64,000 nt of DNA from an uncultured Bacteroidales bacterium. Its GTDB lineage: Bacteria; Bacteroidota; Bacteroidia; Bacteroidales; F082. The stretch is taken from assembly GCA_900318265.1 (NCBI GenBank), contig ONKA01000007.1, forward strand, positions 40,310-104,309, in the 5' to 3' direction. Below are positions 5,393 through 33,164 of this stretch, piece after piece; position 1 is the first letter of the stretch; the number at the start of each line of letters is the position of its first letter. The notes below the pieces were generated by a model. The model ran no database searches. It was not told where the DNA came from and saw nothing but the letters and a program-made list of their open reading frames with translations. The position numbers and the translations under genes are program-made.

Positions 5393-6682
5393 ATGAAAAA
5401 ATCAATGATCACAATTATCATCGCAGTCATGGTCGTCAGCATCGGTCATGCACAGTATTTGGATGGCACGATAACCCAACCCACTCACGTCGTCGCCAGG
5501 AGGATCAACTCTGACGGAGAGGTCACTAAGGAGTTTGCATCGGACTTTCACTATTACGAAGACGGGAAGCTGTCGCGCTACGAAATCCCCGAGTATTACT
5601 TGACAGCCACCTACACCTATACCGATGATTACCTCGAACACGAACGCATTGTCCACAATGGAGGCCATCCATTATTCGAAGAAAACAACCACTACACCTA
5701 TGAGAATGGACAAATCAAGACCATGAGCCATTTAATGGATCAAATGGGCTTCAGCTCGTTTTGGGTTTACAGCTATTATCCCGATGGCCGGCTGGAAAGA
5801 AAGGACTACAGGGAAGAAGACGAGAACGATTTCCACACGCATTGGCTGTACGAGTATGAGAACGAAGGCAAGACTGTCGTAGAGTCGTATTGCACGTCGT
5901 GGCCTTCGCAGGGAATGCTCCTGAGAAAGAAGACAACCAAACAGTATGACGACAATTTCGTCTTGTCTTCGACATATACGGAGAACTACAGTGAATCAGG
6001 AGAATTGACTTCAGCCACACGGACTGACTATGGCTATTCAGCCAGCGGACTGCTAGAGACGAAAACCACACAGACACTTATCGAAGACGAATGGCACAAT
6101 TCCTCTATTACGCGCTATTCGTATGATAATCAGGGGCAAATCACCGAACAGCTCGACTGCACATGGGACGCCGAAAACTCCGAATGGAACCCCACACACA
6201 AAATCGTTTTCGAAACCTCGGAACCAGAACAAACCTATACGGTTTCGTTTTATAAGAAAAGCGGTGGCGAATGGGTATGGGACGTCTTCAACAGGCATAC
6301 CATATTATTCGGTTCCAACCTAAAAGCCCAACAAAGTGCCTTGGGCTATTTTGTGTATGAGGAGATGAACGGCTATGGAAACATCAACCAATTTGTGTTT
6401 ACCATGGAGATGATGAATGAGCCGGTCTATTTGTCGGTTGAAGACCGCACGGGGTCAACTATTAATGTATATCCCAACCCCGCCAAGGGCATTCTGTTTG
6501 TAGAGACGCGGCGCGCCACGTCTCTACCAGACAAAACCTACCGCATCACCAATATCATGGGACAAACTCTGCTGCAAGGCCACATCACCGCCGAAACACA
6601 ACAAATTAATATAGCATCTCTGCCAGCGGGAATGTATTTCATTATCTTTGCGGGTGAGACACGAAAATTTGTCGTGAAATAA
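5393..6682 (+). CDS. T9SS type A sorting domain protein with YD-like repeats
   Basis: A 429-residue secreted protein. Residues 1-20 form a signal peptide. The body contains loosely repeated Y-x-Y-[DE]-x-x-G-x-[IL] units (for example YSYDNQGQITEQ, YSYYPDGRLERK), like the toy-like/RHS-type YD repeats of Bacteroidales surface proteins. The last 75 or so residues are a T9SS type A domain: VYPNPAKGILFVE, a palindrome-encoded stretch, YRITNIMGQTLLQG, SLPAGMYFI, and a KFVVK end. This signal directs export through the outer membrane and anchoring at the surface. It is a paralogue of the 10747-12171 product and has its own promoter. Confidence 0.85.
   Translation: MKKSMITIIIAVMVVSIGHAQYLDGTITQPTHVVARRINSDGEVTKEFASDFHYYEDGKLSRYEIPEYYLTATYTYTDDYLEHERIVHNGGHPLFEENNHYTYENGQIKTMSHLMDQMGFSSFWVYSYYPDGRLERKDYREEDENDFHTHWLYEYENEGKTVVESYCTSWPSQGMLLRKKTTKQYDDNFVLSSTYTENYSESGELTSATRTDYGYSASGLLETKTTQTLIEDEWHNSSITRYSYDNQGQITEQLDCTWDAENSEWNPTHKIVFETSEPEQTYTVSFYKKSGGEWVWDVFNRHTILFGSNLKAQQSALGYFVYEEMNGYGNINQFVFTMEMMNEPVYLSVEDRTGSTINVYPNPAKGILFVETRRATSLPDKTYRITNIMGQTLLQGHITAETQQINIASLPAGMYFIIFAGETRKFVVK
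6500..6527. repeat. 28-bp palindrome inside T9SS domain (copy 1)
   Basis: Arms GTAGAGACG (6500-6508) and CGTCTCTAC (6519-6527) flank a GC-rich core containing GGCGCGCC. The element is read in frame as part of VETRRATSLP. Confidence 0.9.
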
Positions 6683-6700
6683 ACAAAAAAACCTAATACC

Positions 6701-8581
6701 ATGAAAAAGCTATTTATAATTTCTGTATTAATGGCCTTGGTCATAAATGGATTCACGCAAAACCAATACGATTTCTCGTCTGTTTGTGAGACAGGACAAA
6801 CATTATTCTACCGCATTACCGATGCGGAAACGCACACCGTAACTTTAACACATCCTTGCTCGGAAAACGACCCCGGGTTCGAGGGCGATTATTACGGGTA
6901 TCATCCCCACCCAGAAGGTGTCATCGTTATCCCTTCCGAAGTGACTTACAACGGCATTGATTACTCAGTAACAGCCATTGATTCTCGTTCTTTCTGGGAC
7001 TGCCTCATTACATCTATTTTTATACCAAACAGCGTAAACAATATCGTTCCTGGAGCATTTTCATCTTGTGAGTTTTTGGAATCCATCTCTATGGACGAAG
7101 AAAACCCGACATACTATTCGGAAAACAACACCATCATCAGAAGGGAAGACAATGCGTTAGTAGTGGGATGCAAGGCAAGTATAATTCCTGAAGACATTGA
7201 GATTATTTGTCGGAACGCTTTCTTTTGCATGGGCAGCAGTGGTGTTTTGACAATTCCCAATTCTGTTAGAATTATTGAAGAATATGCTTTTGCGTATAAT
7301 CATTTTTCGGGTTCGCTCACTCTCCCTGAATCGTTGGAAACCATAGGCGCAATGGCTTTCTATGTAGGCGGTTTTTCAGGGTCATTGACCATGCCCAATT
7401 CGGTGACAGAAATAGGACATCATGCTTTTTATGGCTGTCATTTTAGTGGCAGCTTGACACTGTCTTCTTCGCTTTCTACAATTGAGAATTGCGCCTTTGC
7501 GAGATGCCATTTTTCTGGAACGCTCGTCATACCAAATTCTGTAAGCCTTATTGTTGGTGCTGCTTTTACTGAAAACGACTTTTCAGAACTTGTATTAGGA
7601 GAATCTGTAACTACTATCGAAAGCATCGCTTTTTCAGATTGCACCAATCTAACAGGAACATTAAGACTACCTGCCTCTCTTACACTGATTGATCAAATGG
7701 CTTTCATTAACACTTCTTTCAACGAGATTTATTCTCCAAACAGATTGCCGCCTACGTTGGCTTCCAATGCCTTCCAAGGATATGACCCCAACATCCCGAT
7801 CCATATACCTTTCGGCTGCACCGAAGCTTATCAAAACGCCGAAGGGTGGAACTATTTCACCAACTTCATCGAAGAAGAGCCCATCATCTTTACCATATTT
7901 GAGCCAGATACCTGCTTCACATTAAACTATCAAGACACTATTTATTGGGACCTTAACCAAGATGGGAACCAAGACATCTACTTTTATTTGGTTTGGCATT
8001 CTGCTGGAGGTTATATGACATTCATGAAGCCCAAAGCCAATTGGAAATGGAGCAACTCCATAAAAATCGATCAAACTCATTTTCAACCTTTGACGTACAC
8101 CACAACGATAGATGAATCTTTATATTGGGAAGCCGGAGATTCATTTATCAATGGTTATGAAGAACCCGAATGGTGGCATTTTGCTTTTCGGCACCAAGCC
8201 GAGGATGGCATACACTATGGTTGGGCGCATATCAAAAACGCCGGGTATCGCCAGTTTTGTATCTCCGGCATGGGCTACTGCACCATACCAAACTATCCCA
8301 TCGTCTGGGGGCAAACCAATATTACCGAAGGCATGGAAGAAGAGACAATAGAAAATGATTTTTCGGTCTATCCCAACCCCGCCAACGGCGTCCTGTTCGT
8401 ACAGACGCGCCATGGCACGTCTCTACCAGATCCAACCTACCGCATCACCAACATCATGGGACAAACCCTCCTTTCGGGTAACATCACCGATGAGACCCAG
8501 CAGATTAATTTAGAATCGCTGCCTGCGGGCATGTATTTTATTACCTTTGCAGGTGAGACACGAAAATTTGTTGTGAGATAA
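6701..8581 (+). CDS. BspA-type leucine-rich repeat T9SS cargo protein
   Basis: A 626-residue secreted protein with an N-terminal signal peptide. From about residue 70 to 370 it carries BspA-type (LRR_5) repeats of about 24 residues, e.g. SGSLTMPNSVTEIGHHAFYG, capped by IHIPFGCTEAYQNAEGW. Residues 390-545 form one copy of a domain also found in the next two genes (FEPD... DLNQDGNQDIYF ... YGWAHI ... YCTIPNYPIVWGQT). The last 75 residues are a T9SS type A sorting domain ending in KFVVR. BspA-like repeats commonly mediate adhesion, which is inference here. The start is 18 bases after the previous stop. Confidence 0.87.
   Translation: MKKLFIISVLMALVINGFTQNQYDFSSVCETGQTLFYRITDAETHTVTLTHPCSENDPGFEGDYYGYHPHPEGVIVIPSEVTYNGIDYSVTAIDSRSFWDCLITSIFIPNSVNNIVPGAFSSCEFLESISMDEENPTYYSENNTIIRREDNALVVGCKASIIPEDIEIICRNAFFCMGSSGVLTIPNSVRIIEEYAFAYNHFSGSLTLPESLETIGAMAFYVGGFSGSLTMPNSVTEIGHHAFYGCHFSGSLTLSSSLSTIENCAFARCHFSGTLVIPNSVSLIVGAAFTENDFSELVLGESVTTIESIAFSDCTNLTGTLRLPASLTLIDQMAFINTSFNEIYSPNRLPPTLASNAFQGYDPNIPIHIPFGCTEAYQNAEGWNYFTNFIEEEPIIFTIFEPDTCFTLNYQDTIYWDLNQDGNQDIYFYLVWHSAGGYMTFMKPKANWKWSNSIKIDQTHFQPLTYTTTIDESLYWEAGDSFINGYEEPEWWHFAFRHQAEDGIHYGWAHIKNAGYRQFCISGMGYCTIPNYPIVWGQTNITEGMEEETIENDFSVYPNPANGVLFVQTRHGTSLPDPTYRITNIMGQTLLSGNITDETQQINLESLPAGMYFITFAGETRKFVVR
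8399..8426. repeat. 28-bp palindrome inside T9SS domain (copy 2)
   Basis: Left arm GTACAGACG (8399-8407, one mismatch to the family) and right arm CGTCTCTAC (8418-8426) flank a core containing GCCATGGC. It encodes part of VQTRHGTSLP in frame. Confidence 0.85.
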
Positions 8582-8602
8582 ACAAGCCAAAAAACTAATA
8601 CC

Positions 8603-9820
8603 ATGAAAAAACTATTGATATTCTTAGCCATCCTAACCTGGACTTCATTGGCATTGAATGCCCAGCAGGGCGAAATCATCTACATAGATTTTGAACCTGA
8701 CTCCTTAGTTGAACTTAAGCAATACGACCTCTATCCAGAGAGCAAAATGATGATAGATTTCGATTACGATGGTCACCCTGATATAAGAATCACCAGTTAT
8801 GTTTACTCTGCAGGAGGTTGGTTTGATATGATTTGTTATGAACCAGAATGGGAATTACACGAATTCAGACCTTGCGACACGCTGACACCAATGAATGAAC
8901 CAGAGCATTATTGGTCTACAAGGATTGCCTGGATGTGGGATTATTGTAACGGGATAGATACTATAAGCGACAAGTTTGCTGTTAGGCACAAAGTAGGAGA
9001 CGCTTATTACTATGGATGGTTTAGGGTTTATATCACTCGTTGTCCGCCAAGTCCATATCCATGGGTTGCTTTAGATAAAATGGCCTATTGCACCGATCCA
9101 AATTATCCTTTGGTTTGGGGACAAACAGAGATTCCACCCCAACCCGCAATCATCTATACTGATTATGATCCAGACTCCTGTATCACAGACCAATACACTA
9201 AACTTTGGGTTGATTTTGACGATGATGGCAATGGCGATATTTGTCTAAAAATGGATTATACAAGTACTGGATATTGGCCAGAAATCATCTCCTCAGATGA
9301 CTGGGAGATAACATGGTTGGATGATGACGATACAGACACCATACCTAACATTGACCATTGGGGACACTCTTATCTATGGTTAGATGATGAAGGCCAAAGT
9401 CGTTTTGCCGCGCGAAAACAAATCGGAAACAATTACATATTTACTTGGTTTGAGGCATACAACTATGTGACATTTAATCCGTTTATTTGTCATGTTTGTT
9501 TCGACAAATATGTCTATTGCACCGTTCCAAACTATCCTTTGGTGTGGGGACAAACCGAACTATTGGCCATAAAAGAAAACGACTATTCCAACACCTTCGC
9601 CAGCGTCCACCCCAACCCCACCACAGGCCTCGTCACCATCGCAGGCGAGAACCTCAGGCAAGCCGAAGTGCTCAACATGCTCGGGCAGCAAATGCTCAGC
9701 GTGCAGGGCGAGGGCAACGAGCTCCGCATCGACATGGCTGCACTGCCCGCAGGCGTCTACTTCTTCAACGTCACTGACGATGAAGGGCGCAAGTGCGTGC
9801 GGAAGGTGGTGAAAGAATAG
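8603..9820 (+). CDS. T9SS cargo protein with two copies of a WGQT domain
   Basis: A 405-residue protein with a signal peptide (cleavage near ALNAQ). Residues 20-170 and 180-320 are two tandem copies of a roughly 140-residue domain. Each copy begins with IIY-x-D-[FY]-[ED]-PDS, contains a calcium-loop-like D-x-D-x-D-G-x-x-D-I motif and an aromatic YYGWF/FTWFE strand, and ends YC-T-x-PNYPLVWGQTE. The C-terminal domain (VHPNPTTGLVTI ... LNMLGQQ ... LPAGVYFFNV ... VRKVVKE) is a T9SS type A signal of a different subtype, with no embedded palindrome. I recognise no function for the repeated domain. Confidence 0.85.
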   Translation: MKKLLIFLAILTWTSLALNAQQGEIIYIDFEPDSLVELKQYDLYPESKMMIDFDYDGHPDIRITSYVYSAGGWFDMICYEPEWELHEFRPCDTLTPMNEPEHYWSTRIAWMWDYCNGIDTISDKFAVRHKVGDAYYYGWFRVYITRCPPSPYPWVALDKMAYCTDPNYPLVWGQTEIPPQPAIIYTDYDPDSCITDQYTKLWVDFDDDGNGDICLKMDYTSTGYWPEIISSDDWEITWLDDDDTDTIPNIDHWGHSYLWLDDEGQSRFAARKQIGNNYIFTWFEAYNYVTFNPFICHVCFDKYVYCTVPNYPLVWGQTELLAIKENDYSNTFASVHPNPTTGLVTIAGENLRQAEVLNMLGQQMLSVQGEGNELRIDMAALPAGVYFFNVTDDEGRKCVRKVVKE

Positions 9821-9846
9821 TAAAGATAATGCAGCCATGAAATAGT

Positions 9847-9886
9847 TTATCTACCTTTGCGATATGAAGCGGTAACTAAACAACTT
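9847..9886 (+). promoter_or_regulatory. Duplicated promoter/leader module, copy 1
   Basis: A 40-base stretch containing TACCTTTG (9852-9859) matches 10693-10732 at 37 of 40 positions. No good TTG lies 20 bases upstream. It sits just before the ATG at 9902. Confidence 0.55.
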
Positions 9887-9901
9887 AAAAACAATCATAC
9901 C

Positions 9902-10663
9902 ATGAAAACAAAACTAATCTCTTTAGCCGTTTTATTGTTGTCCGCTTTCGCCATGAAAGCCCAGCAAGGCGAAATCATCTATAGGGATTTCGAGCCAGAT
10001 TCCACATTGAAATTATGGAGCGATATCCGTTCTATGACGATTGACCTTGATGGAGAAGGTTCGCCAGATATAGAATTGTATTATACAATCGGAGGAGGAT
10101 TGGGTATAATTTCTCCGCACATTCATTCTAATAAACCAGATGTTCTTGAGCTGTGCGCAATTGATTCGGTTTACGTTATTCCCAACAATGAAGCATGGGT
10201 TACGGATGTTAGCGAGTGGGTTGTACGGGCCAATGATTGTTATGCCTTTCGTTATAAACATAACGACGGGTATTTGTACGGCTGGTTTGAAACCTTTAAG
10301 AAAGAAGTCATAGAAAACGGGCTTCGTGAAGTTTATTGGGGCGTTGATAGGGTCGCTTTCTGCACAATTCAGGATTATCCATTGGTTTGGGGCCAAACAA
10401 ACTTCACGGGTATATATGAAAATGACAACCCATCCACCTTCACCACCATTCATCCCAACCCCACCACAGGCCTCGTAACCATCACTGGCGACAACCTGCA
10501 ACAGGCCGAAGTGCTCAACATGCTCGGGCAGCAGGTGCTCAGCGTGCAGGGCGAGGGCAACGAGCTCCGCATCGACATGGCTGCGCTGCTCGCAGGCGTC
10601 TACTTTGTCAACGTCACCAACGAGGAAGGGCGCAGGTGCGTGCGGAAGGTGGTGAAGGAATAA
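9902..10663 (+). CDS. T9SS cargo protein with one WGQT domain
   Basis: A 253-residue protein. I chose the ATG at 9902 because it begins a clean signal peptide (MKTKLISLAVLLLSAFAMKAQ). An upstream in-frame ATG at 9857 overlaps the promoter's -7 box. The mature part is a single WGQT domain (EIIYRDFEPDST, DLDGEGSPDIEL, YLYGWFETF, FCTIQDYPLVWGQT), then a T9SS domain nearly identical to that of the preceding gene (LNMLGQQVLSVQGEGNELR), pointing to recent duplication. LPAGVYF has become LLAGVYF. Function is unknown beyond predicted surface attachment. Confidence 0.82.
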   Translation: MKTKLISLAVLLLSAFAMKAQQGEIIYRDFEPDSTLKLWSDIRSMTIDLDGEGSPDIELYYTIGGGLGIISPHIHSNKPDVLELCAIDSVYVIPNNEAWVTDVSEWVVRANDCYAFRYKHNDGYLYGWFETFKKEVIENGLREVYWGVDRVAFCTIQDYPLVWGQTNFTGIYENDNPSTFTTIHPNPTTGLVTITGDNLQQAEVLNMLGQQVLSVQGEGNELRIDMAALLAGVYFVNVTNEEGRRCVRKVVKE

Positions 10664-10692
10664 ACATATAGAATACCCAGCCATATAAAAAC

Positions 10693-10732
10693 TTATTTAC
10701 CTTTGCGATATGAAGCGATAACTAAACAACTA
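10693..10732 (+). promoter_or_regulatory. Duplicated promoter/leader module, copy 2
   Basis: Second copy of the 40-base module, with TACCTTTG at 10698-10705, ahead of the ATG at 10747. Flanking sequence also shares a CAGCCAT stretch with the upstream side of copy 1. Confidence 0.55.
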
Positions 10733-10746
10733 TAACAACCAATACC

Positions 10747-12171
10747 ATGAAAAAGACAATCATTACCTTAATCATTGCCCTCGGCTGCTTCAGCTTTCTT
10801 GAGGCTCAATCCATTCAAAAGCCAGAACGGGTTTATAAACGCTACACCTATGCCGATATCTTTAACAACGATACCATTACAGAAGAAATGACACTAGAAG
10901 GGACTTTTCATTACAACATCCATGATTTGGTCTCATCTTATGAATGCTCAATACAATATGGCAGCTATGGCAACGAATATTACAGAAAAAACTATTGGTA
11001 TGACAACGACTCGCATATTATCAAATATTCATTTAGCGGGTATGATGGTGGCGGTATAATTGGCGACGACAGCGTCTACTATGTATATGATAACGACTTG
11101 CTATCTTATTCCAAAAAGCTTTATGTCAACAAATGGGGAGGATGGTACTATACAGATAGCGTAGCTTACTATTATTATGACGATGGTACTCTAAAACGAA
11201 AAGAGCAATACGGCAGAAACCCTGATGATTTGCATTGGCCTTCTTCTCCAAGTATAGTTACCGAGATCGCTTATGATGAAACAGGGGCGGAAAAGATAAA
11301 GACTGAAACTCAGATTCGTAATGGGAAAGTCTATTACCGCAAAACCTCCCACTATGACCTAAACGACCATATCATATACTTCCTAAATGAAGGCTATAAC
11401 GGTTATGACTATTTATGGGCGGGTTATACTATAGCCTATGGATACGAAAACGGACTTTGCCAAACCAAAACACGGCAAAAATGGGTTGTTGCCGACAGTT
11501 GCTGGGTCAACGATTCAAGTTTTATTTTCCAATACAATGATATAGGGATTAGGACAGAAGAGCTTGCGCAAATATGGGTTGATAACGAATGGCAAAACGC
11601 ACAACGAACCCGATGGGAAGTGGATGAAGACGACACCATGCACAGTATCACATACGAAGTGTGGAACGATAGCCTATTCACCAACAGCAAAAGGGTGGAA
11701 TACCAATATGAAAACGGACTGTGCATAGGTTTGGTTGGATTGGTGTGGTCAGGAGATAGTTGGGTGTATGGAATGGCAGGAGTGAATGGGGTTGGCGGAA
11801 ACAATGAACGCATATTTTGGGATGAATCGCTCAGCACTGAAGACAATCTGATCAGGGTAACTCATCACAGCTTCACGAACACCACAATAATCTGGCAAAC
11901 CCTGTATGAAGGCATCGACGAAAAAGAAGAAAAAACCAAAGCGAGTGATTTCACGGTCTATCCCAATCCTGCCAACAACATCCTATTTGTAGAGACCCGC
12001 CATGGCACGTCACTACCAGACCAAACCTACCGCATCACCAACATCATGGGACAAACCCTCTTGCAAGGTTCGATTAACGCTGAAATCCAGCAGATTAATA
12101 TAGCATCCCTACCCGCAGGATTGTATTTCCTCAGCGTGGGCAACACGACGCAGAAATTTGTGAAACAATGA
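10747..12171 (+). CDS. T9SS type A sorting domain protein with YD-like repeats
   Basis: A 474-residue paralogue of the 5393-6682 product. It has a signal peptide (MKKTIITLIIALGCFSFLEAQ) and many Y-x-Y-[EDN]-N-[GD] units across residues 80-400 (YVYDNDLLSYSKK, YGYENGLCQTKTRQK, YQYENGLCIGLVG). It ends in a T9SS type A domain (VYPNPANNILFVE, YRITNIMGQTLLQG, SLPAGLYFLSV, KFVKQ). Repeats of this sort build extended surface proteins; no enzymatic motif is visible. Its TGA overlaps the ATG of the TPR/HTH regulator (ATGA), so the two are translationally coupled. Confidence 0.85.
   Translation: MKKTIITLIIALGCFSFLEAQSIQKPERVYKRYTYADIFNNDTITEEMTLEGTFHYNIHDLVSSYECSIQYGSYGNEYYRKNYWYDNDSHIIKYSFSGYDGGGIIGDDSVYYVYDNDLLSYSKKLYVNKWGGWYYTDSVAYYYYDDGTLKRKEQYGRNPDDLHWPSSPSIVTEIAYDETGAEKIKTETQIRNGKVYYRKTSHYDLNDHIIYFLNEGYNGYDYLWAGYTIAYGYENGLCQTKTRQKWVVADSCWVNDSSFIFQYNDIGIRTEELAQIWVDNEWQNAQRTRWEVDEDDTMHSITYEVWNDSLFTNSKRVEYQYENGLCIGLVGLVWSGDSWVYGMAGVNGVGGNNERIFWDESLSTEDNLIRVTHHSFTNTTIIWQTLYEGIDEKEEKTKASDFTVYPNPANNILFVETRHGTSLPDQTYRITNIMGQTLLQGSINAEIQQINIASLPAGLYFLSVGNTTQKFVKQ
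11989..12016. repeat. 28-bp palindrome inside T9SS domain (copy 3)
   Basis: GTAGAGACC (11989-11997) and CGTCACTAC (12008-12016) flank a core with GCCATGGC, the same core as copy 2. The arms have drifted at two positions. In frame it encodes VETRHGTSLP. Confidence 0.85.
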
Positions 12172-13514
12172 AAACACGATGTATCATCATGGCAGTCCTT
12201 CTGTTGGTGGGCCTCGCGTCTTGCCAGCAAGGCGCACGTAGCCTAAAAGAAGCCGAGACGCTCTTTCAACAAGGCGTAGAGCAACGTGCCGACAAACATA
12301 CGGAGGCCGCTGCCGAAAGCTTCAGCCAGGCCCTGCTCGCCATCGAACGCTGCGACACGGAACAACCTGAGGTGCAGCGGCTGAAAGCCCAGATCGAGGA
12401 CAACCTCGGCTTCTGCTACTGGAAACACGAGCTGTTTGCGGAAGCCCTGCCGCTGCATGCCGACGCCGCCACCCGGGCCCGCGAACTCAACGACTCCACA
12501 CTATTGATGACCTCCCTGCGCAACAGCGGTCGCGCTGTGGCCTCGTCGGGCGACATCGACGCGGCAGAACAGCATTACAAGGAAGCCCTTGCCATCGCCA
12601 AAGCCTTGAATGACAAATCCATGGAAAGCGACATCCTGCTTGAGTTGAGCCGCGATGTGTACATACCCAAAGGAGCCTACAACCATTCGGTGAAATGCGT
12701 CACCCAAGCTTTGGAAGGCGGAGCCGATGCCGACATCTGCCACCTGACCTTGGGTTTGGCACACTATTATTTGGCCCACGACAGCCTCGCCATGCTGCAT
12801 CTCGAAGAAGCCACCAAGAGCAAACAAGCCGGCACCCGAATGTCGGCCTACCAAACTCTGTCGTTCATTTACCAAATTGCAAAAGACTACCAAAAATCTC
12901 TTGAATGCCAAGAGCTTTTCTATAACAACCTGATGCAGGCCGACCAAGAGCATCGCAGCGAGCAGGTGCAGCGCATCAAAGGTGAATATGAGCTCCAAAT
13001 GCAGAAAAACAGCCTACAAGCCGAGCAAAAACTGAAGAGCCTCTATCTCTACCTCATTTTAGGCGGCTTGGTGGTGGCCTTGGCCGTTGTGTTGCTGCTG
13101 TTGCGACAAAAATCGCTCAGTGCCAAGCTGAAAGCCGAAGAGATGAAGAACCAGTTGGAGACCGAGCTGAAAAAGAACAAGGTCTACGTTACCGCCTTGG
13201 CCCTCACCGAGCAAATCACAGCCTCGACCCTCGACTTCGACCTGAAGGACAGCGAATGGGACGACTTCGTGGTGCTCATCGACAAGGTGTACGGCGACTT
13301 CACCCAACGCCTCACGACACAATACCCCTCCCTTACCAAGAGCGACCTGCAAATCTGCTGCCTCACCAAGCAAGGCTTCAGCAACCAGGTCATCTCCATC
13401 CTGATGAACCTACAAACCAACAGCTACGCCCGCCGCAAGTCGCGCATCAAGCAAGAGAAGATGAACGGGCTGGAAGACGAACGGAGCTTTGAGGAGATAA
13501 TCAACGAGATATGA
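12168..13514 (+). CDS. TPR-containing membrane regulator with C-terminal HTH
   Basis: A 448-residue protein. The N-terminus is a lipoprotein-type signal (LVGLASC), and tetratricopeptide-like helices fill residues 25-280. One transmembrane helix (LYLYLILGGLVVALAVVLLLL, about 290-310) is followed by a coiled coil. The cytoplasmic end contains SLTKSDLQICCLTKQGFSN and YARRKSRIKQEK, a LuxR-like helix-turn-helix typical of Bacteroidetes TPR regulators. The architecture suggests a sensor that couples a periplasmic TPR domain to DNA binding. The ATGA overlap with the upstream T9SS gene suggests it regulates or responds to the cargo cluster; that is inference. Confidence 0.78.
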   Translation: MKTRCIIMAVLLLVGLASCQQGARSLKEAETLFQQGVEQRADKHTEAAAESFSQALLAIERCDTEQPEVQRLKAQIEDNLGFCYWKHELFAEALPLHADAATRARELNDSTLLMTSLRNSGRAVASSGDIDAAEQHYKEALAIAKALNDKSMESDILLELSRDVYIPKGAYNHSVKCVTQALEGGADADICHLTLGLAHYYLAHDSLAMLHLEEATKSKQAGTRMSAYQTLSFIYQIAKDYQKSLECQELFYNNLMQADQEHRSEQVQRIKGEYELQMQKNSLQAEQKLKSLYLYLILGGLVVALAVVLLLLRQKSLSAKLKAEEMKNQLETELKKNKVYVTALALTEQITASTLDFDLKDSEWDDFVVLIDKVYGDFTQRLTTQYPSLTKSDLQICCLTKQGFSNQVISILMNLQTNSYARRKSRIKQEKMNGLEDERSFEEIINEI

Positions 13515-13534
13515 ACGAATAAAAACACCATACA

Positions 13535-16500
13535 ATGAAAAAGCTAACCTTAATCAACATCTTGTTTTTCTTTGCCATAAATGGTTTCGCGCAAGAAGTC
13601 CATTTCGATTTCTCGGTCATCAATTCGACGGGCTATGAGATTTTTTACCGCATTGTTGACCCAGTGAACCATTGGGTGGAAGCCACCTACCCTTGCCAAA
13701 ACGGCGACAACTATTGGTGGGGCTACGACAAGCCCGAGGGCAAGCTCATCCTCGCCGACAGCGTTACCCATGAGGGGACAACCTACACCCTTGTTGCCAT
13801 CGGTGACCACGCCTTTTGTGGTTGTTCAGGCTTGAGAGGCACGCTTGCATTGCCACAAACCATCACCGCCATCGGAGACGGAGCCTTTAAAGGCTGCTCC
13901 AACATAAACGGCAATTTGAACATTCCAACCTTGGTGACACATATCGGAAACGAAGCATTTTACGATTGTTCAAAACTGTCGGGACAATTGTTTTTAAGCG
14001 ACTCGTTGACTTACATCGGCGACAAGGCTTTCTATCATTGCAACAGGTTGTCCGACAGGTTGGTCATCCCCGGCAGAACCACTTATATCGGCAACAACGC
14101 CTTCGAACAATGCGGGTTCAGTGGCAGAATCCTGCTCCCAGTAACGTTGGAAACCATCGGAACAGAGGCATTTAAAGGCATGTCGGACATCAGCAGTATC
14201 TGCAGCAAGGCCATCGTGCCACCCTCCACAGACGAAAGCGCTTTTGAGGGCATATCCCGATGGATTTACCTGGTTGTACCCTACAATACGATTGAAGCCT
14301 ATCAAAACGCACCTGGCTGGTCGCGTTTCAACCAAAGAACCATCGAAAAATCCATTTGGAACGGCACCGCCGAGCCCTGGACCAAAGGCAGCGGCACCCG
14401 CGAAAACCCTTATCTTATCGAGTCGGCCGAAAATCTAGCGTGGTTGGCCCAATCAGTGAACCAAGCTGTGAACATCAGCATCGACACGGTTTTGAATACA
14501 AATGGCGATATGCAAGTCGACACCACATATCATGACGTTTTGGCCTATCAGGGCATCTATTTCCGACAGGTGATTGACATCGACCTCCAAAGAGACTATG
14601 GCTTTTTATGGGATCCCATCGGCAACATGCATTATGGAGACAACATCGACTACTGCACCTATTTCTGTGGACATTATGACGGCAACGGCCACAAGATAAG
14701 GAACTTTAAGATTAACATACCAACAAACTATGCGATTACCACAAACGACTATTATTATGGTTTGTTCGGAATCGTAATGAACGGTAGCCTTACCAACATT
14801 AACACTTCAGTCGTTGTCATTGAAGTTGAAGATCAACAAAACAAATGCATTGGAGGCCTTGTAGGAAAAGCCGTCAACGCCCAATTGATTAACTGTCATA
14901 ACGGTGGACAGTGGCTCCGTTGCGGACTTCTCGAGCAAGAGTACGTCTTACACGTGTTCAACACCTCCGTTGGAGGCATCGTAGGCGTGGCCGAAAAGAG
15001 CCTCATCGAGAATTGCAGCAATTCAGGCGGAATAAAAGTTGTTTACGGTTCATCCTCAACCAGCAAGAATGGTGTTGGAGGCGTGGTCGGTGTTTTCCTA
15101 TGTGATGAGGAACCCACCGGAAACAATGGTATCATTGGATGCAGTTTCACTGGCAATTTAGAGGCCCATGGTTTCATGACAGAGGCCGATGGAGGTGGAA
15201 TTGTAGGACTATGTGCCAGCAGTGCAGAAGGTTCGGGATCAATAAAACTTGAAAGATGTTCCAGTAAAGGAATGGTGTTCGGCGACTGCATCCATGGAAA
15301 TGAACCAAAGATGATCAGCTTAGGTGGTATTGTGGGCAATGTGCTTGATATTGACACTTTATCTGTAATCAGCTGCTATTCAAACGACTCCTTGCCCGCC
15401 AATGCCGAAGACATGGAATCCTATGCGGGCGGTATCATCGGAAAGGCCCATCCCAACACCACGCTCTTCGTCAAGAACTGCTATCACACTGGTTCGATCA
15501 CTTCATACAATAGCGGAGGCATCGTGGTCCAAAACACCAACATGACCCTTGTCAGAAACTGCTATTTCGACGAAACCGTGGCTCCCGACGACGGCTTTGG
15601 CATTCCCTTGGACAACGATTATATGAAGTCGGCGGCTTTTGTCAACCAACTCAATAACGGCAGCTCCGTGTTCATGAAAGACCACGAGCCCTATGTAAAC
15701 GACGGCTATCCCATCTTTGGCACCGACGGCCTCATCTTTGTGGGCGCAGAATGGTATTACGAAATCGTGGAAAACGATGGTACCATCTGCTATCAGCATT
15801 TGCAGTGCACAGGCGACACCACCATCAACGAAGATCGGCCCAAGGTCCTCGTGCGCAGCAACACGCAATACGACCGTGGCAAACACACCGAGGTGACACA
15901 CGAATACGTCTATGAAAAAGACGGAAAGGTGTATTGGTGGAACAAAGAACTGCAAGTTTTCACCGTGCTCTACGACTTCGGCGCTGAGGTGGGCGACGAA
16001 TGGGAGATCCTGGTAGGTTCGGATAGCATCGCCACAAAAGTCTACGAGATTGAGAACTATCTGATAGAAGGCATTCCCTACAAGAAAATGACCATTGGCG
16101 ATGCCAACAACCTCTTCAGCGGCACACTCATCAGCACCATCGGCCACCTCACCAGCTTCTTCCCCGAAAAACTGATGACGCGCGGCAAAGGCTACCAAGT
16201 GGATGGCCTGCGCTGCTACTGGCTCGACGGCGACCTCATGCTCAAACTCGGCGACCACGATTGCGACGAGGTGTATCAGCAATACCACAATGGCATCGAC
16301 GAGCCGACGGATGATGCGGTGTTTGCGGTATATCCCAATCCGACCAACGGCGTCCTCTTTGTAGAGACGGTGTGCACACCGTCACTACCAGCGGAAACCT
16401 ACCGCATCTCCGACCCCATGGGGCAAACCCTGCTGCAAGGCAATATCACCGCTGAGACGCAACAGATTAATATCGAAAACCTGCCTGCCGGAATGTATTT

Positions 16501-16543
16501 CATTACCGTTGCAGGCGAGACACGGAAATTTATAGTCAAATGA
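13535..16543 (+). CDS. Large LRR and GLUG-like T9SS cargo protein
   Basis: A 1002-residue secreted protein. After the signal peptide come BspA-type LRR_5 repeats (about residues 85-235, e.g. LNIPTLVTHIGNEAFYDCSK) capped by VPYNTIEAYQNAPGW. At about residue 270 a WNGTAEPWTKGSGTRENPYL segment starts a repeat region with GLUG-like units (GGLVGKAVNAQLINCHNGG, GGIVGVAEKSLIENCSNSG, GGIIGKAHP), probably a beta-helix. A mixed domain and a T9SS type A domain (YPNPTNGVLFVE ... YRISDPMGQTLLQG ... KFIVK) follow. Adhesion is a plausible role for this architecture but is not shown. Confidence 0.85.
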   Translation: MKKLTLINILFFFAINGFAQEVHFDFSVINSTGYEIFYRIVDPVNHWVEATYPCQNGDNYWWGYDKPEGKLILADSVTHEGTTYTLVAIGDHAFCGCSGLRGTLALPQTITAIGDGAFKGCSNINGNLNIPTLVTHIGNEAFYDCSKLSGQLFLSDSLTYIGDKAFYHCNRLSDRLVIPGRTTYIGNNAFEQCGFSGRILLPVTLETIGTEAFKGMSDISSICSKAIVPPSTDESAFEGISRWIYLVVPYNTIEAYQNAPGWSRFNQRTIEKSIWNGTAEPWTKGSGTRENPYLIESAENLAWLAQSVNQAVNISIDTVLNTNGDMQVDTTYHDVLAYQGIYFRQVIDIDLQRDYGFLWDPIGNMHYGDNIDYCTYFCGHYDGNGHKIRNFKINIPTNYAITTNDYYYGLFGIVMNGSLTNINTSVVVIEVEDQQNKCIGGLVGKAVNAQLINCHNGGQWLRCGLLEQEYVLHVFNTSVGGIVGVAEKSLIENCSNSGGIKVVYGSSSTSKNGVGGVVGVFLCDEEPTGNNGIIGCSFTGNLEAHGFMTEADGGGIVGLCASSAEGSGSIKLERCSSKGMVFGDCIHGNEPKMISLGGIVGNVLDIDTLSVISCYSNDSLPANAEDMESYAGGIIGKAHPNTTLFVKNCYHTGSITSYNSGGIVVQNTNMTLVRNCYFDETVAPDDGFGIPLDNDYMKSAAFVNQLNNGSSVFMKDHEPYVNDGYPIFGTDGLIFVGAEWYYEIVENDGTICYQHLQCTGDTTINEDRPKVLVRSNTQYDRGKHTEVTHEYVYEKDGKVYWWNKELQVFTVLYDFGAEVGDEWEILVGSDSIATKVYEIENYLIEGIPYKKMTIGDANNLFSGTLISTIGHLTSFFPEKLMTRGKGYQVDGLRCYWLDGDLMLKLGDHDCDEVYQQYHNGIDEPTDDAVFAVYPNPTNGVLFVETVCTPSLPAETYRISDPMGQTLLQGNITAETQQINIENLPAGMYFITVAGETRKFIVK
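16361..16388. repeat. 28-bp palindrome inside T9SS domain (copy 4)
   Basis: GTAGAGACG (16361-16369) and CGTCACTAC (16380-16388) flank the self-complementary core GTGTGCACAC. In frame it encodes VETVCTPSLP. Confidence 0.9.
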
Positions 16544-16642
16544 TTTAAAACCGAGGCGCAACTCTCACATAACAGTCCCAAAGGAACAAACCAAATTGGT
16601 GGCTGTTTAGCTAGAACTATGTCATAATCAAAACTGAAAAGA

Positions 16643-18526
16643 ATGGAAAATAAAGAACATAAATCATTGATTTTCATAATATTAATAGGAGTTTCAATGA
16701 ATATTTTCGGCCAAACGGAGAAGGTTGTTTTCTCCGCTCCAGGAGGTTTTTATGAGACCAGCTTTTCATTGTCGTTGGAATGTCTGTCCGCCCTACACCA
16801 CGTGCGATACACCACAAACGGAGCCTCACCCAACACCACTTCCCGTCTGTACGAACAACCGCTTTGGCTTGACAAGAGCCTATACTCGCATTCCGACATC
16901 TACACTATCCAAACTGGTCCGGAAAACATCTTCTACCTGCCCGATTCCGTCCAACACTGCATCGTCATTCGTGCCGCCGTATTCGACGAAAACGACAGTT
17001 GCATTAGTGCGACCACAACCCAATCCTATCTGATCCGTGACTTGGACAACATTGACACTCAACTCCCCATGCTCTCCATCTGTGCTGATTCCCTCGACCT
17101 GTTTGACAACGAGCAAGGCATTATGGTGCCAGGCGTTTTCTTCGACAACACCAACCTCGACCATTCGGGCAACTATTATCAAACGGGAAGGGAATGGGAA
17201 CGTGTTGTGAATGTGGAATATCATGATCCTGCCAACAATAGCGGCATCAACCAGACCTGTGGGCTAAGAACCCACGGCAACCGTGCCCGTCGCTATCCAC
17301 AAAAAGGCTTGAAAATCTATGCCCGCGAGGAATACGGTAAGAAACGCTTCACATACCCATTCTTCGAAAACAGCCCGCTCAACAGTTTCAAACACTTGGT
17401 CATCAAGCCCTATTCGTCACTTTATCCCTATACTGGCATTCAAGACTATATTTGCAGCCAGACCGCTATCGACATGGGCTTGGAGGCAGGACTATCGCGA
17501 CCTGTCGTGCTCTTTCTTAACGGCGAATACTGGGGCATTTATTTCCTACAGGAGAAAACGGATGAGCGGTATCTTGAAGACCATTTCGGGATTGACATAG
17601 ACCATTGCCAAATCGTTAGCAACTGGAACGGATTGGCCCAATACGGCGGTCAAGTCGACGACTATGGCGACAACATCGAGTTTGCGAACATGATGGATTG
17701 GCTTGAGACGGTTAACCTTTCGAGAGAAAGTGACTATCAACACCTGTGTGAACTCATCGACATCGACAACTTCATAGACTACATCATCCTGGAAACTTTC
17801 ATCGCCAACAACGACTGGCCCGCCAACAATATGCGGTGTTGGAAAATGGACGAAGGCAGATGGCGTTGGATGTTCTTTGACGGTGACGCCGCACTCAACA
17901 ACTTTAACCTCGATCCTTTCGGCAACGCCATCCCTCTCGATGTTTTCGGCAACGCCACCTACACAGGAGAATATAACTGGCCATCAAGCCGAAAAGCAAC
18001 CCTACTATTTAGGAGATGCCTTGAAAACCATGAGTTTACATCCCGTTTCGAAAGCAGAATGTCGCAATTGTGCAACGAGGTTCTTACCTATGAAAAAACG
18101 GGGGCGTATTATCATCACATCTTAGAATTGTTGCATCCGGAAATAACGGCACAATCCTTCAGGTTTGGCTATCCATCCCATGTCAATTATTGGAACTGGG
18201 CTTGCACCCTTATCGACGACTTCCTATCAAACCGAGTGAATACTTATTTTGCTGAATACGAGAATCATGTGGGACTAGATGAATATTCGGCATCGACCTC
18301 GTTTTCCTTATATCCCAATCCTGCTAACGGTGTCCTGTTCGTTGAGACGGTGCATGCACCGTCTCTACAAGACCAAACCGCGTACCGCATTTCCAACCTC
18401 ATGGGACAAACCTTGCTACAAGGCAAAATAACTGCTGAGACGCAACAGATTAATATCGAAAACCTGCCTGCCGGAATGTATTTCATTACCGTTGCGGGCG
18501 AGACACGGAAATTCATGGTACAATAA
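16643..18526 (+). CDS. CotH-family protein kinase with T9SS sorting domain
   Basis: A 627-residue secreted protein. After a signal peptide, residues 28-130 resemble a chitobiase/hexosaminidase-type C-terminal Ig-like domain (VRYTTNGASPNTTSRLYEQP). Residues 140-500 form a CotH domain: LRTHGNRARRYPQKGLKIYA, FLNGEYWGIYFLQEKTDERY, then WRWMFFDGDAALNNF, whose DxD holds the expected metal-binding acidic residues. CotH proteins have an atypical kinase fold and phosphorylate spore-coat proteins in Bacillus; the substrate here is unknown. The C-terminus is a T9SS type A domain, so the kinase would act outside the cell. A strong terminator follows. Confidence 0.88.
   Translation: MENKEHKSLIFIILIGVSMNIFGQTEKVVFSAPGGFYETSFSLSLECLSALHHVRYTTNGASPNTTSRLYEQPLWLDKSLYSHSDIYTIQTGPENIFYLPDSVQHCIVIRAAVFDENDSCISATTTQSYLIRDLDNIDTQLPMLSICADSLDLFDNEQGIMVPGVFFDNTNLDHSGNYYQTGREWERVVNVEYHDPANNSGINQTCGLRTHGNRARRYPQKGLKIYAREEYGKKRFTYPFFENSPLNSFKHLVIKPYSSLYPYTGIQDYICSQTAIDMGLEAGLSRPVVLFLNGEYWGIYFLQEKTDERYLEDHFGIDIDHCQIVSNWNGLAQYGGQVDDYGDNIEFANMMDWLETVNLSRESDYQHLCELIDIDNFIDYIILETFIANNDWPANNMRCWKMDEGRWRWMFFDGDAALNNFNLDPFGNAIPLDVFGNATYTGEYNWPSSRKATLLFRRCLENHEFTSRFESRMSQLCNEVLTYEKTGAYYHHILELLHPEITAQSFRFGYPSHVNYWNWACTLIDDFLSNRVNTYFAEYENHVGLDEYSASTSFSLYPNPANGVLFVETVHAPSLQDQTAYRISNLMGQTLLQGKITAETQQINIENLPAGMYFITVAGETRKFMVQ
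18341..18368. repeat. 28-bp palindrome inside T9SS domain (copy 5)
   Basis: GTTGAGACG (18341-18349) and CGTCTCTAC (18360-18368) flank the core GTGCATGCAC. In frame it encodes VETVHAPSLQ. Confidence 0.9.
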
Positions 18527-23791: not shown

Positions 23792-23821
23792 GGCCCCTGA
23801 GCCAGTCGAAGGGCCGTTTTT
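23792..23821. repeat. CTTCGAC-type dispersed palindrome (intergenic)
   Basis: GGCCC (23792-23796) pairs with GGGCC (23811-23815) around CTGAGCCAGTCGAA, ending in a T-run just before the ATG at 23825. It shares GAGCC-GTCGAAG-GCCGTTTT with the copies at 20617 and 28601. Confidence 0.65.
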
Positions 23822-30084: not shown

Positions 30085-32406
30085 ATGAACAAACTGAAAT
30101 CTACCCTCCTCATAGCCGCATGGCTCATCTCCACCTTCGCCATGGCCCAAGGCGGCGTCTCCATCGGCAATTGGCGCACCCACCTACCCTATCAGAAAGT
30201 GATTGGCGTGGAACCCATAGGCAACAAGATCTATGCCGCCACGCAGTATGAGCTGTTTTACTACGACACGCAGGACAATTCCATCAATATCCTCAACAAG
30301 ATCAACGGCTTGTCGGACATCGGCATCAGCACCATCGGATACAACGAAAGCCAACGTAAGCTCTTCGTGGCCTATACCAATGCCAACGTCGACCTCATCG
30401 ACCATGATGGCAACATCCACAACATGAGCGACATCAAGGACAAGAACATCGTAGGCAACAAGAGCATCAACCATGTGTTTTTCGATGGCGACTTGGCCTA
30501 CGTGGCCTGCGGTTTCGGCATCGTGGTCTTCGACTTGAAAAAGGAAGAAGTTAAAGACACCTATTACATTGGAAGCCAAGGCGATATGGTCAATGTCACC
30601 GATGTGGCCAAATACAACGGCCGCCTCTACGCCTGCACCGACAACGGCATGTACTATGCCTCACTTGACGCACAAAACCTGGCTAACTATGCCGCATGGC
30701 ACTTCGACAACAGCCTCATCCATCCCCATCTAGCCTATACCGAGATGGAGGTGTTTGGCGGCAAGCTGATACTTAACTACAATGGCGGCTTCAATTCCGA
30801 CACCCTCTTTGTCTTCGATGGCAACCATTGGGGTTATCTCGATAAAGAGAACGTCAGCGAAAAGAGACAGATGCGTGCTTACAGCGACCGCTTCCTGCTC
30901 ACCAACCGTTATAACGTCTCGGTGTTTGACCTCAACCTCAACCAGCAACATTCCATCCACTCGCCTGGTGGCAACATCGAGCCCTGGGCCGTGGGTTTGG
31001 ACAACAACGGCAACTATTGGATTGGCGACAACAAACGTGGTCTCATCAAGACCTCTGATGGTTGGAACAACATGGATGTGAAACCCAACGGCACGGCTTC
31101 GAAAAACGTCTTCGAGCTTAAGGCTTGTGGAGACCAAGTTTGGATTGCTACGGGAGGCCATGCCTCCAACTGGGGCAAACGCTACATGCGCGAAGGCGTG
31201 GCACGCTTCGACGGCTTGTGGACCATCATCAACCAAAACACCCTTCCTGACCTCACCAACTACACCGATTACGTGTGTACCGCCACCAACCCAAACGACC
31301 CTTCGGTCACATACGTGGGCACCTGGGGCAGCGGCATCTTGAAGTTCAAGGACAACGAACTGGTGGAGGTTTATAACGCCGAGAACAGCTCACTTGAACC
31401 TTGGGCTAGCGACCCGAATCTCATCAACATCAGCGGCTTGGCTTTCGACAGCAAGGGCAACCTCTGGGTAGCGAATACCGGCGCCCCCAACCTACTTTCC
31501 GTGATGGAGCCCAACGGCACTTGGCATTCCTACAACTTGGGCGGTAGCCTCAGTGCCATCGACATCGGTACTTTGCTCATCGACCATAACGACTACAAAT
31601 GGCTCACACGCCGTAATGGCGAAGTTATTGTCTTCAACGACAATGGCACCCTCGACAACCCTGCCGACGACCAGGCGGTCAACCTGAATTCGGCAACAGG
31701 AAGCGGCAAACTGCTCGGCTCGGTCAGCTGCCTCGCCGTCGACAACAAAGGCTACGTTTGGGCAGGCACCGACAAAGGCCCTTGTCTGTTTGAAGACTCA
31801 AGAAAGATCTTCAACGGCTCCAACTTCGATGCCACGCAGGTACGCGTGCCTCGCAACGACGGTACCCAACAATTCGATTACTTGTTTGCCGAATCCAGTG
31901 TACTCTCCATGGCTGCCATGGAAGGCGCCGACCAAATTTGGTTCGGCCTCGAATCAGGCGTCTATCTCATGTCGTTTGACGGCCAACCTAAACAAATCCA
32001 TTATTTCAACACCGACAACAGTCCTTTGCTTGACAACGCCGTCACCACCATGGCAGTCGACAAGAGCGGTGAAGTGTTTTTCGGTACGGCCAGTGGTGTC
32101 ATCTCCTATCGCGGCGAGTATGCCACTCCCGATCCCATCATCACCGACGTGGTTGCCTATCCTAACCCAGTGAGACCTGGATACAATGGCTTCGTCGGCA
32201 TCAAGGGTTTGGTTTCCAATTCATTAGTGAGAATCACCACCGTCGACGGCACTTTCGTCACCCAATTGATTTCGGAAGGCGGTCAAGCCGTGTGGGACTG
32301 CACCACCATCAACGGCGAGAAAGTGGAGCCCGGCGTCTACCTCATCTTCGTCAGCACCAAGCAAGGCACTGACAAGTTTGCCACCAAGATCCTGATCATG
32401 AACTAA
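30085..32406 (+). CDS. porZ: T9SS attachment-complex protein PorZ
   Basis: A 773-residue protein. After a signal peptide, the N-terminal segment SIGNWRTHLPYQKVIGVEPI, IYAATQYELFYYDTQDNSI and ACGFGIVVFDLKKEEVKDTY matches PorZ as I know it. Two beta-propellers (about residues 30-680) precede a C-terminal T9SS-type domain (VVAYPNPVRPGYNGFVGI ... EPGVYLIFVSTKQG ... TKILIMN). In Porphyromonas gingivalis PorZ is part of the cell-surface attachment complex that delivers anionic lipopolysaccharide to the sortase PorU. It would serve the many cargo proteins in this window. Its stop overlaps the recO start by one base. Confidence 0.87.
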   Translation: MNKLKSTLLIAAWLISTFAMAQGGVSIGNWRTHLPYQKVIGVEPIGNKIYAATQYELFYYDTQDNSINILNKINGLSDIGISTIGYNESQRKLFVAYTNANVDLIDHDGNIHNMSDIKDKNIVGNKSINHVFFDGDLAYVACGFGIVVFDLKKEEVKDTYYIGSQGDMVNVTDVAKYNGRLYACTDNGMYYASLDAQNLANYAAWHFDNSLIHPHLAYTEMEVFGGKLILNYNGGFNSDTLFVFDGNHWGYLDKENVSEKRQMRAYSDRFLLTNRYNVSVFDLNLNQQHSIHSPGGNIEPWAVGLDNNGNYWIGDNKRGLIKTSDGWNNMDVKPNGTASKNVFELKACGDQVWIATGGHASNWGKRYMREGVARFDGLWTIINQNTLPDLTNYTDYVCTATNPNDPSVTYVGTWGSGILKFKDNELVEVYNAENSSLEPWASDPNLINISGLAFDSKGNLWVANTGAPNLLSVMEPNGTWHSYNLGGSLSAIDIGTLLIDHNDYKWLTRRNGEVIVFNDNGTLDNPADDQAVNLNSATGSGKLLGSVSCLAVDNKGYVWAGTDKGPCLFEDSRKIFNGSNFDATQVRVPRNDGTQQFDYLFAESSVLSMAAMEGADQIWFGLESGVYLMSFDGQPKQIHYFNTDNSPLLDNAVTTMAVDKSGEVFFGTASGVISYRGEYATPDPIITDVVAYPNPVRPGYNGFVGIKGLVSNSLVRITTVDGTFVTQLISEGGQAVWDCTTINGEKVEPGVYLIFVSTKQGTDKFATKILIMN

Positions 32407-33131
32407 TGGACGACACAATCCAAGGCATAGTCCTGCAATCCATCCGCTACGGCGACACCAGCCTCATCGTAAAAGTGTTCACCCGAAGCCTTGGCTTGCG
32501 TTCCTATATGGTGAAAGGCGCCTTCAACCGCAACTCGAAGAGCCGCGCCGCCTTGTTCCAAAACCTACACCTTATTAATTATGTGGAAGCAGGCAAGCCC
32601 AACAAAAGCAGCTTGGGTTATATGAAAGACGTGCAGCTCACCACAGTCTACCAAAGCATCCCTTTTGTGATGAACAAAAGCGCCATCTTGATGTACATCA
32701 GCGAGTTGCTTTCAAAAACCATCACGGAGCAGGAGCAAAATGAGCCACTCTACGACTTCATTGAAAGGTCAATGCTCTGGCTCGACTTGGTCCATCAAGA
32801 CTATGCCAACTTCCCCTTATTCTTTACCTTAGAACTGACACGTCATCTTGGCTTTTATCCTAAAGCTAACTACGAGTCGGGCTATTGCTTTGACATGATG
32901 GAAGGCTCCTTTAGCCATGACCACCCCTTGCACCCCTACTATTTCGATGCAGAGGACGCACAGCTACTTTCGCAACTGCTCAACGCAGGCATAGACGAAA
33001 CGTGCCGGATCCCATTACATGTGAGCCAACGTCGTTCCCTACTCGACGGGCTCATCGTGTTCATGCGACTCCATGCTCCTGTGATGAACGATTTCCATTC
33101 ACACGAAGTGCTGAAAACGGTTTTGGAATAA
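32406..33131 (+). CDS. recO: DNA repair protein RecO
   Basis: A 241-residue protein with the RecO N-terminal OB-fold (IQGIVLQSIRYGDTSLIVKV, LRSYMVKGAF) and helical C-terminal domain (FTLELTRHLGFYPKANYESG). RecO anneals single-stranded DNA and loads RecA with RecR. The zinc-binding cysteines of some RecO proteins are absent; only Cys in YCFDMMEG is near that region. It starts in TAATG overlapping the porZ stop, so it is translationally coupled to a secretion gene. A perfect 28-bp palindrome follows. Confidence 0.92.
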   Translation: MDDTIQGIVLQSIRYGDTSLIVKVFTRSLGLRSYMVKGAFNRNSKSRAALFQNLHLINYVEAGKPNKSSLGYMKDVQLTTVYQSIPFVMNKSAILMYISELLSKTITEQEQNEPLYDFIERSMLWLDLVHQDYANFPLFFTLELTRHLGFYPKANYESGYCFDMMEGSFSHDHPLHPYYFDAEDAQLLSQLLNAGIDETCRIPLHVSQRRSLLDGLIVFMRLHAPVMNDFHSHEVLKTVLE

Positions 33132-33136
33132 AAAAA

Positions 33137-33164
33137 GTAGAGACGCAAAATTTTGCGTCTCTAC
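33137..33164. repeat. 28-bp palindrome (copy 6), likely bidirectional terminator
   Basis: Arms GTAGAGACG and CGTCTCTAC flank the self-complementary core CAAAATTTTG; the palindrome is perfect over 28 bases. An A-run precedes it. It lies between convergent genes recO and the coiled-coil gene. It is the only copy outside coding sequence. Confidence 0.9.

Follow-up and report, generated by a model that had tools for sequence, protein, structure and literature searches.

In-frame double-foot palindromes of the REP kind in T9SS sorting domains and enzyme loops of a Bacteroidales genus, with different cores at orthologous positions

Among described systems, the closest to the element reported here are the double-foot REPs (repetitive extragenic palindromes) of subclass 2.4 of the TnpAREP proteins, or RAYTs (REP-associated tyrosine transposases), for which PMC6006769 describes REPs lying in frame inside the tnpAREP gene itself and reports that central deletion of an inverted dimer can yield a double-foot REP. 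Intragenic GTAG/CGTC REPs have also been found in protein genes, with the suggestion that they are neutral in flexible linkers or loops (PMC3733652), and the Rickettsia palindromic elements (RPEs), as summarized in the same paper, are likewise short palindromes lying in frame in protein genes. TnpAREP proteins of groups 2 and 3 are reported to cleave REPs in vitro at CT, or at CT and CA, and the mechanism of REP dissemination is described there as still to be elucidated (PMC8266576); REPs next to orthologous rayt genes differ yet remain paired (PMC2817692). Here, we describe a 28-bp palindrome of this kind—arms GTAGAGACG and CGTCTCTAC around a 10-bp core—that recurs in frame in the sorting domains of type IX secretion system (T9SS) genes within a stretch of 64,000 nt (“the window”; positions 40,310–104,309 of contig ONKA01000007.1, assembly GCA_900318265.1) from an uncultured Bacteroidales bacterium of the GTDB lineage F082.

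Six copies of GTAGAGACG-N10-CGTCTCTAC occur in the window at up to three arm mismatches, where chance predicts a mean of 0.01 and at most one (100 shuffles). Like the REPs of subclass 2.4 as presented in PMC6006769, these palindromes have GTAG and CTAC at their two ends. Five of them lie at one point of five sorting-domain genes, just as a preliminary description of the window had stated, all in frame and each starting 30 nt past the first nucleotide of the codon for the tyrosine of YPNP. On the forward strand, these are the copies at 6500–6527 (gene 5393–6682; core CGGCGCGCCA, no arm mismatches, encoding VETRRATSL), 8399–8426 (gene 6701–8581; core CGCCATGGCA, one mismatch, VQTRHGTSL), 11989–12016 (gene 10747–12171; core CGCCATGGCA, two mismatches, VETRHGTSL), 16361–16388 (gene 13535–16543; core GTGTGCACAC, one mismatch, VETVCTPSL) and 18341–18368 (gene 16643–18526; core GTGCATGCAC, one mismatch, VETVHAPSL). 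Arm changes are thus few, as had been noted, and the self-complementarity of the cores, previously credited to four of the five, is real and holds at least nearly for all five (5/5 pairs in two, 4/5 in three).

The family PF18962 (Por_Secre_tail) is matched at E ≤ 0.001 by all 44 aligned sorting domains, including the five in the window (6470–6682, 8369–8581, 11959–12171, 16331–16543 and 18311–18526, all +, carrying the copies in the order given), which also exceed the family cut-off (e.g., 48.5 bits vs. a cut-off of 27 for the domain with the 16361 copy). In an AlphaFold model of this last domain (mean pLDDT, the predicted local distance difference test, 80; strands at residues 23–28 and 37–42), the palindrome-encoded residues 26–34 cover the last part of the first strand together with the loop that follows (pLDDT 69 for residues 31–40), and the best match of the model in the PDB is the mirolase C-terminal domain (E 7.3e-4), with a T9SS-bound NucA substrate and the RgpB C-terminal domain among the next. 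The palindrome is therefore predicted to encode the loop of the first beta-hairpin. Three sorting domains of the window without a palindrome (8603, 9857—whose first ATG is the 9902 of the preliminary description—and 50948) are indeed shorter at this point, but they are distant relatives, 21–27% identical to the 16361 domain as against 60–75% for the other four palindrome-bearing domains.

The palindrome is a genome-wide family. Searching the host genome (G000; 2.98 Mb, 50 contigs, 89% complete; genomes, contigs and loci are numbered below with G, C and L) for the arms yields 100 copies within three mismatches, compared with four for a reversed-pattern control, and 60 with exact arms; the earlier suggestion of a mobile repeat thus holds in that this is a dispersed palindromic repeat of the mobile kind. 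Among the exact-arm copies, 39/60 form all five core pairs and 59/60 at least four, and the most frequent core is GTGTGCACAC (23/60). Within one mismatch, the palindrome is present in 35/35 same-genus genomes, at 2 to 75 copies each, and in 8/24 other genomes of the order, and across GTDB genomes at least 118 stretches contain it, under record titles that name Bacteroidota, cyanobacteria, Spirochaetales, Chloroflexi, Acidobacteria and others.

When 79 host copies within four mismatches were tallied by position, 12 lay in the sorting-domain loop, 23 in other genes (classed by hand, partly with Pfam and NCBIfam) and 44 in intergenic or undetermined positions; for the 60 exact copies these numbers were 7, 17 and 36, and a further, 13th sorting-loop copy (C5:7696) lies beyond the 79. 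Many copies are in frame in genes unrelated to T9SS, among them those for a U32 peptidase (three copies), a GYDIA kinase, a NagK-like kinase, an AlkZ-like protein, a GH77 protein (CBM20 domain), a GH97 protein, a RAYT itself and, in their C-terminal tails, PhoH and RsmI; one more lies at a different loop of a sorting domain (C26:57599). Since enzyme genes and intergenic stretches contain this palindrome too, an element specific to T9SS is ruled out. In one of its three reading phases the GTAG foot gives a TAG stop, and the other two phases read VETxxxxSL and RDxxxxVST. REPINs are dimers of two hairpins: the window copies are single palindromes, and the GYDIA loop of G033 holds such a dimer. 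A REPIN-like two-hairpin insertion is also seen in a regulator-like protein of the host (C45:124856 and 124895), whose paralogue at C31:1535 has a single palindrome in its place.

A transposase of the RAYT type, which the preliminary description had proposed looking for, is encoded in the host genome and carries the same palindrome. The gene (C6:57755–58318) holds it in its reading frame after PNHLH, where it reads IMPNHLHAIVIISAGRDGVHTVST, and one copy inside and one adjoining the gene share the core GTGTGCACAC. The protein matches the NCBIfam model for REP-associated tyrosine transposases below its curated cut-off (NF047646, E 4.5e-16), with the palindrome insertion falling within the profile region. 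Its motifs NHLH, WQ and YIENNV are close, though not identical, to the NH[IFV]H, WQ and YIxNNP of subclass 2.4, a group that PMC6006769 places in Bacteroidetes and Cyanobacteria and to which, by its NH-x-H, WQ and YIxNN motifs, the present RAYT may tentatively be likened. The Pfam model PF01797 found four other transposases, and the RAYT was spotted only by way of the palindrome inside it; the loci of those four other Y1 transposases have no palindrome.

RAYT relatives occur in 37/60 genomes at E ≤ 0.001 (a few of these matches being the palindrome itself) and in 33/60 at E ≤ 1e-10 by hand count. As REPs flank their cognate tnpAREP genes, so a palindrome lies within 400 bp at 19/30 RAYT loci, with at least two at 15/30, one within the RAYT match at 15/30, and copies both inside and beside it at 13/30. 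Cores differ by 1.33 of 10 bases within a RAYT locus (54 pairs) vs. 6.40 between loci (1171 pairs), a tightness reached in 0/2000 permutations of these 30 loci, some of which are closely related and hence not independent. Three loci from GTDB genomes (L127, L128, and L129) likewise have RAYT frames that contain palindromes and are flanked by others of the same core, and the number of RAYT places per genome (E ≤ 1e-10) correlates with the palindrome count (rho 0.63 in 36 genus genomes, and the same in all 60). The link between palindrome and RAYT is thus strong by association and, because each RAYT locus has its own core, cores would arrive as whole paired units.

Among relatives, cores vary at one and the same coding position. 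Of 101 sorting domains of the subfamily from 20 genomes (the best-ranked among the matches listed), 74 carry a palindrome, with 27 distinct cores, and in the remaining 27 domains native sequence or a different repeat is present. The peptides that the palindromes encode bear no relation to one another (e.g., TRHGTSL, TVCTPSL, TQNFASL, THGRASL, and TFPETSP). The preliminary description had held that residues shared without palindromy, or cores without pairing, would reduce the signal to conserved protein sequence; over the 27 distinct cores the paired fraction is 0.76, compared with 0.37 when their 3′ halves are shuffled (sd 0.046, maximum 0.548, n = 2000), and therefore, in this set of 101 related domains, the signal is palindromy of the DNA, and conserved protein sequence is ruled out as its cause. 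In reciprocal-best pairs with upstream regions at least 80% identical (n = 111, sharing domains and hence not independent), both members carry a palindrome in 58, one in 43 and neither in 10. The cores of the 58 differ at four or more of 10 bases in 38 pairs, at two to three in 7 and at none or one in 13; in the 38, arms are 92–96% identical and cores 33%. Base-by-base comparison of 13 pairs includes G003/G002, in which ~100 nt 3′ of the palindrome are identical and four bases within the 28-mer differ, and G002/G022, in which GTGTGCACAC stands opposite CGATTAATCG between near-identical flanks. A comparable case is reported in PMC3733652, where different REPs occupy about one site in recB of two Xanthomonas species.

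As gene conversion between paralogues could explain core changes in sorting domains, we examined two conserved enzyme genes, those of the GYDIA kinase and U32, at 30 genus loci each (frame recovered in 29/30 GYDIA loci). A single GYDIA junction holds CGCCATGGCA, its reverse orientation, CACCATGGCA, GTTTGCACAC, GTGTGCACAC, TTTCCTGAAA or the two-hairpin dimer of G033, which makes three classes of core, the two orientations and a single dimer; the remaining loci show a native loop or repeats of the HCEERSDEAIQ type. In a 26-species tree made without the loops by a quick method, the eight palindrome rows require at least four core changes, and unlike cores occur in close comparisons (G000 vs. G021 and G016, fork 98; G002/G024, 84; G012/G033, 87). 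Three core types, native loops and two other repeat types are found at U32 site 1, and three palindrome cores at one position, together with many other repeats, at U32 site 2. No full paralogue that could have donated a core to U32 or GYDIA was found in the searches.

Two further observations concern these enzyme loops. The U32 and GYDIA loops of G034 and G020 contain a longer in-frame palindromic repeat coding HCEERSDEAIQ-like peptides, the long form of which ends in ...WIASAKGLAM; a 30-base stretch of this repeat has no match in the window within three mismatches. With its flanks GCATTTTTGC and GCAAAAATGC included, the palindrome at U32 site 2 of the host (C7:19763–19810, L159) is perfectly symmetrical over 48 bp; the aligned relatives lack this symmetry.

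Loop lengths between fixed anchors bear on how the palindromes arrived. The GYDIA loop is 13 aa long in 7/7 parsed palindrome rows (one of the eight was unparsed) and 15 aa in 15/17 parsed native or other rows—the exception in G023 looks like a decayed palindrome—so that the palindrome form is 6 nt shorter than the native. At U32 site 1, loops have 12 aa with the palindrome (6/6 parsed) vs. 7 aa in native rows (8/8), i.e., +15 nt, and at U32 site 2, 19–20 aa in four parsed palindrome rows vs. 13–15 aa in five distant native ones (about +12 to +21 nt). Sorting loops with a palindrome measure 12–14 aa in 72/74 domains and native or other loops 8, 8, 9, 9, 12, and 13 aa; between the sorting-domain orthologues of G017 and G026 (upstream 94.9% identical), the palindrome form is longer by 9 nt. 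At none of these four sites is there the net gain of element plus target-site duplication that a simple transposon insertion would leave, and the frame-keeping insertion of 28 bp plus a 2-bp duplication put forward in the preliminary description (+30 nt) is not supported. Judging from these alignments, either native loop residues would have been replaced by the palindrome or the loops would have been trimmed afterwards.

We interpret the family, its RAYT association, its in-frame loop positions and the different cores at orthologous positions, all shown above, as very probably the mark of RAYT-mobilized double-foot REPs of subclass 2.4 that persist in tolerant loops and leave orthologous slots with different cores. 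The HUH tyrosine transposase, with the palindrome in and around its own gene, would spread a mobile, non-autonomous palindrome that consists of the two arms and a 10-bp self-paired core. Genic copies would persist only in the two stop-free phases, as about nine residues in a tolerant loop, linker or tail. Elements with different cores would later overwrite an ancestral one where it stands, either by gene conversion or by an exchange that the RAYT mediates between shared arms or feet, and the sorting-domain subfamily would have spread by duplication, palindrome included. From different cores at one site we infer exchange in place, with loss and re-insertion at the same junction as a possible route as well. 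A parasitic DNA element thus seems to rewrite one short stretch of protein again and again.

Several points weigh against this interpretation. No mobility has been observed, and parsimony on the GYDIA tree is blind to the difference between exchange and loss followed by re-insertion at the same junction. The reciprocal-best pairs may include paralogues, the 12 nt 3′ of the palindrome are just 69–76% identical in them, and paralogue gene conversion can explain part of the core swaps in sorting domains. The net length changes (−6 and about +9 to +21 nt) are unlike simple insertion, and therefore replacement or trimming must be added to the account. As for the transposase, the host RAYT scores 59.1 bits, below the curated NF047646 cut-off of 80, and a Pfam search of it returned no family at E ≤ 0.001; another palindrome adjoining it has a different core, as have two at L217, and 11/30 RAYT loci have no palindrome within 400 bp, some of them being weak matches or cut by contig ends.

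An extension of this interpretation, which we offer tentatively and hold to be rather unlikely, is that RAYTs of subclass 2.4 exchange REPs as cassettes: with feet and arms in common, one REP could replace another in place, whatever its core, so that a loop once colonized becomes a lasting landing pad. If so, the protein sequence of the loop would be rewritten by whichever RAYT lineage is active, diversifying T9SS sorting tags and enzyme loops across the genus.

The strongest alternative, which we regard as possible but short of probable, is that the loops are hot target sites in which each lineage received a separate REP by independent insertion, with no exchange in place. It gains from the unrelated repeats found in the same loops: one coding HHSAFRIHHSEF-like peptides fills the sorting loop in 14/101 domains by motif sorting (L359 at G000 C10:2687, L360 at G000 C11:5847 and 12 other genus domains), an RLPQCDSP repeat is another unrelated occupant of that loop, and HCEERSDEAIQ repeats occur in GYDIA and at U32 site 2. 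It also gains from the U32 site-1 palindrome of G023, whose nearest relatives in the tree are native there, and from two G026 sorting domains with the palindrome 15 nt further on. However, the GYDIA rows that carry a palindrome agree to the codon at either junction, and their constant loop length would demand that every insertion hit exactly.

Somewhat more doubtful is a single ancestral sorting-domain palindrome that spread by domain duplication, its cores shuffled only by gene conversion between paralogues. Such an origin would fit the position at nt 30 in 72/74 carriers, the long flanks shared by paralogues and the occurrence of CGCCATGGCA in one orientation in 12 domains vs. a single TGCCAAGGCG, but 27 distinct cores within the domain set are hard to reconcile with it, and cores also change in U32 and GYDIA, the genes for which the searches gave no full paralogue donor.

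We consider it very improbable that selection maintains the palindrome for some role in the sorting domain or the corresponding mRNA, such as efficient secretion, control of translation by a hairpin, or diversification of the loop. The concentration of 12/79 host copies, and of the 13th, in one loop of one sorting-domain subfamily would suit such a role, yet this clustering is explicable by domain duplication, and the unrelated peptides, the other repeats or native loops that relatives have there and the presence of the same element in enzymes and intergenic DNA all speak against it. Least credible is the proposal, made in the preliminary description, that sorting domains move from one cargo gene to another by recombination at the palindrome: mosaics of cargo and sorting domain do exist, but, judged from 13 pairs compared base by base, in the one clear case (G021 C22:32785 vs. 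G029 C119:4237; upstream 99.3% identical over 447 nt, sorting domains different) the sequences diverge from the domain start onward and not from the palindrome, suggesting a domain exchange with its breakpoint there, the partner has no palindrome, and in G003/G002 the sequence past the palindrome is identical though the palindrome differs.

Other features of the window and host genome may be recorded alongside. The sixth window copy (33137–33164, without strand; exact arms, core CAAAATTTTG) is intergenic, between open reading frames at 32406–33131 (+) and 33190–34104 (−). A CCTTCGACAGGCTCAGG-type repeat lies at 23796–23812 (−) and also 5′ of several sorting domains at other loci; it codes PSTGSGT-like peptides directly ahead of YPNP in several domains of the genus, and in a second loop of GYDIA it codes PEPVEG-like ones. 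The host locus L167 has two near-identical sorting regions (C16:6249 and 9426) within one long open frame, the first of them without a normal domain end, which may reflect a frameshift or an assembly fault.

Returning to RAYT-mobilized REPs, the element and its transposase are of a known kind; that the element lives in frame in T9SS tags and in loops of enzymes, and that its core changes repeatedly in one slot, appears to be new. Those parts of PMC6006769 that treat these elements mention neither the sorting domains of T9SS nor the replacement of native loops, nor do they speak of cores that change recurrently at orthologous coding sites, and PMC3733652, in the parts that bear on intragenic copies, stresses replication and repair genes and takes the GTAG families that it names from phyla outside Bacteroidetes. 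Among the matches listed from the openly licensed literature, no title dealt with REPs in T9SS sorting domains or with core exchange at orthologous coding sites, and among those for the arm sequence as a literature word, titles look like chance oligonucleotide matches.

Coding loops, with their constant flanks and frame constraint, record the gain, loss and replacement of REPs better than intergenic copies do, and many slots in this genus bear such a record; the genus also supplies pairs of RAYT and core for a direct test. Short in-frame mobile DNA appears to rewrite the loops of conserved enzymes and the secretion tags of Bacteroidales-like bacteria, beyond the examples from Rickettsia and others given in PMC3733652.

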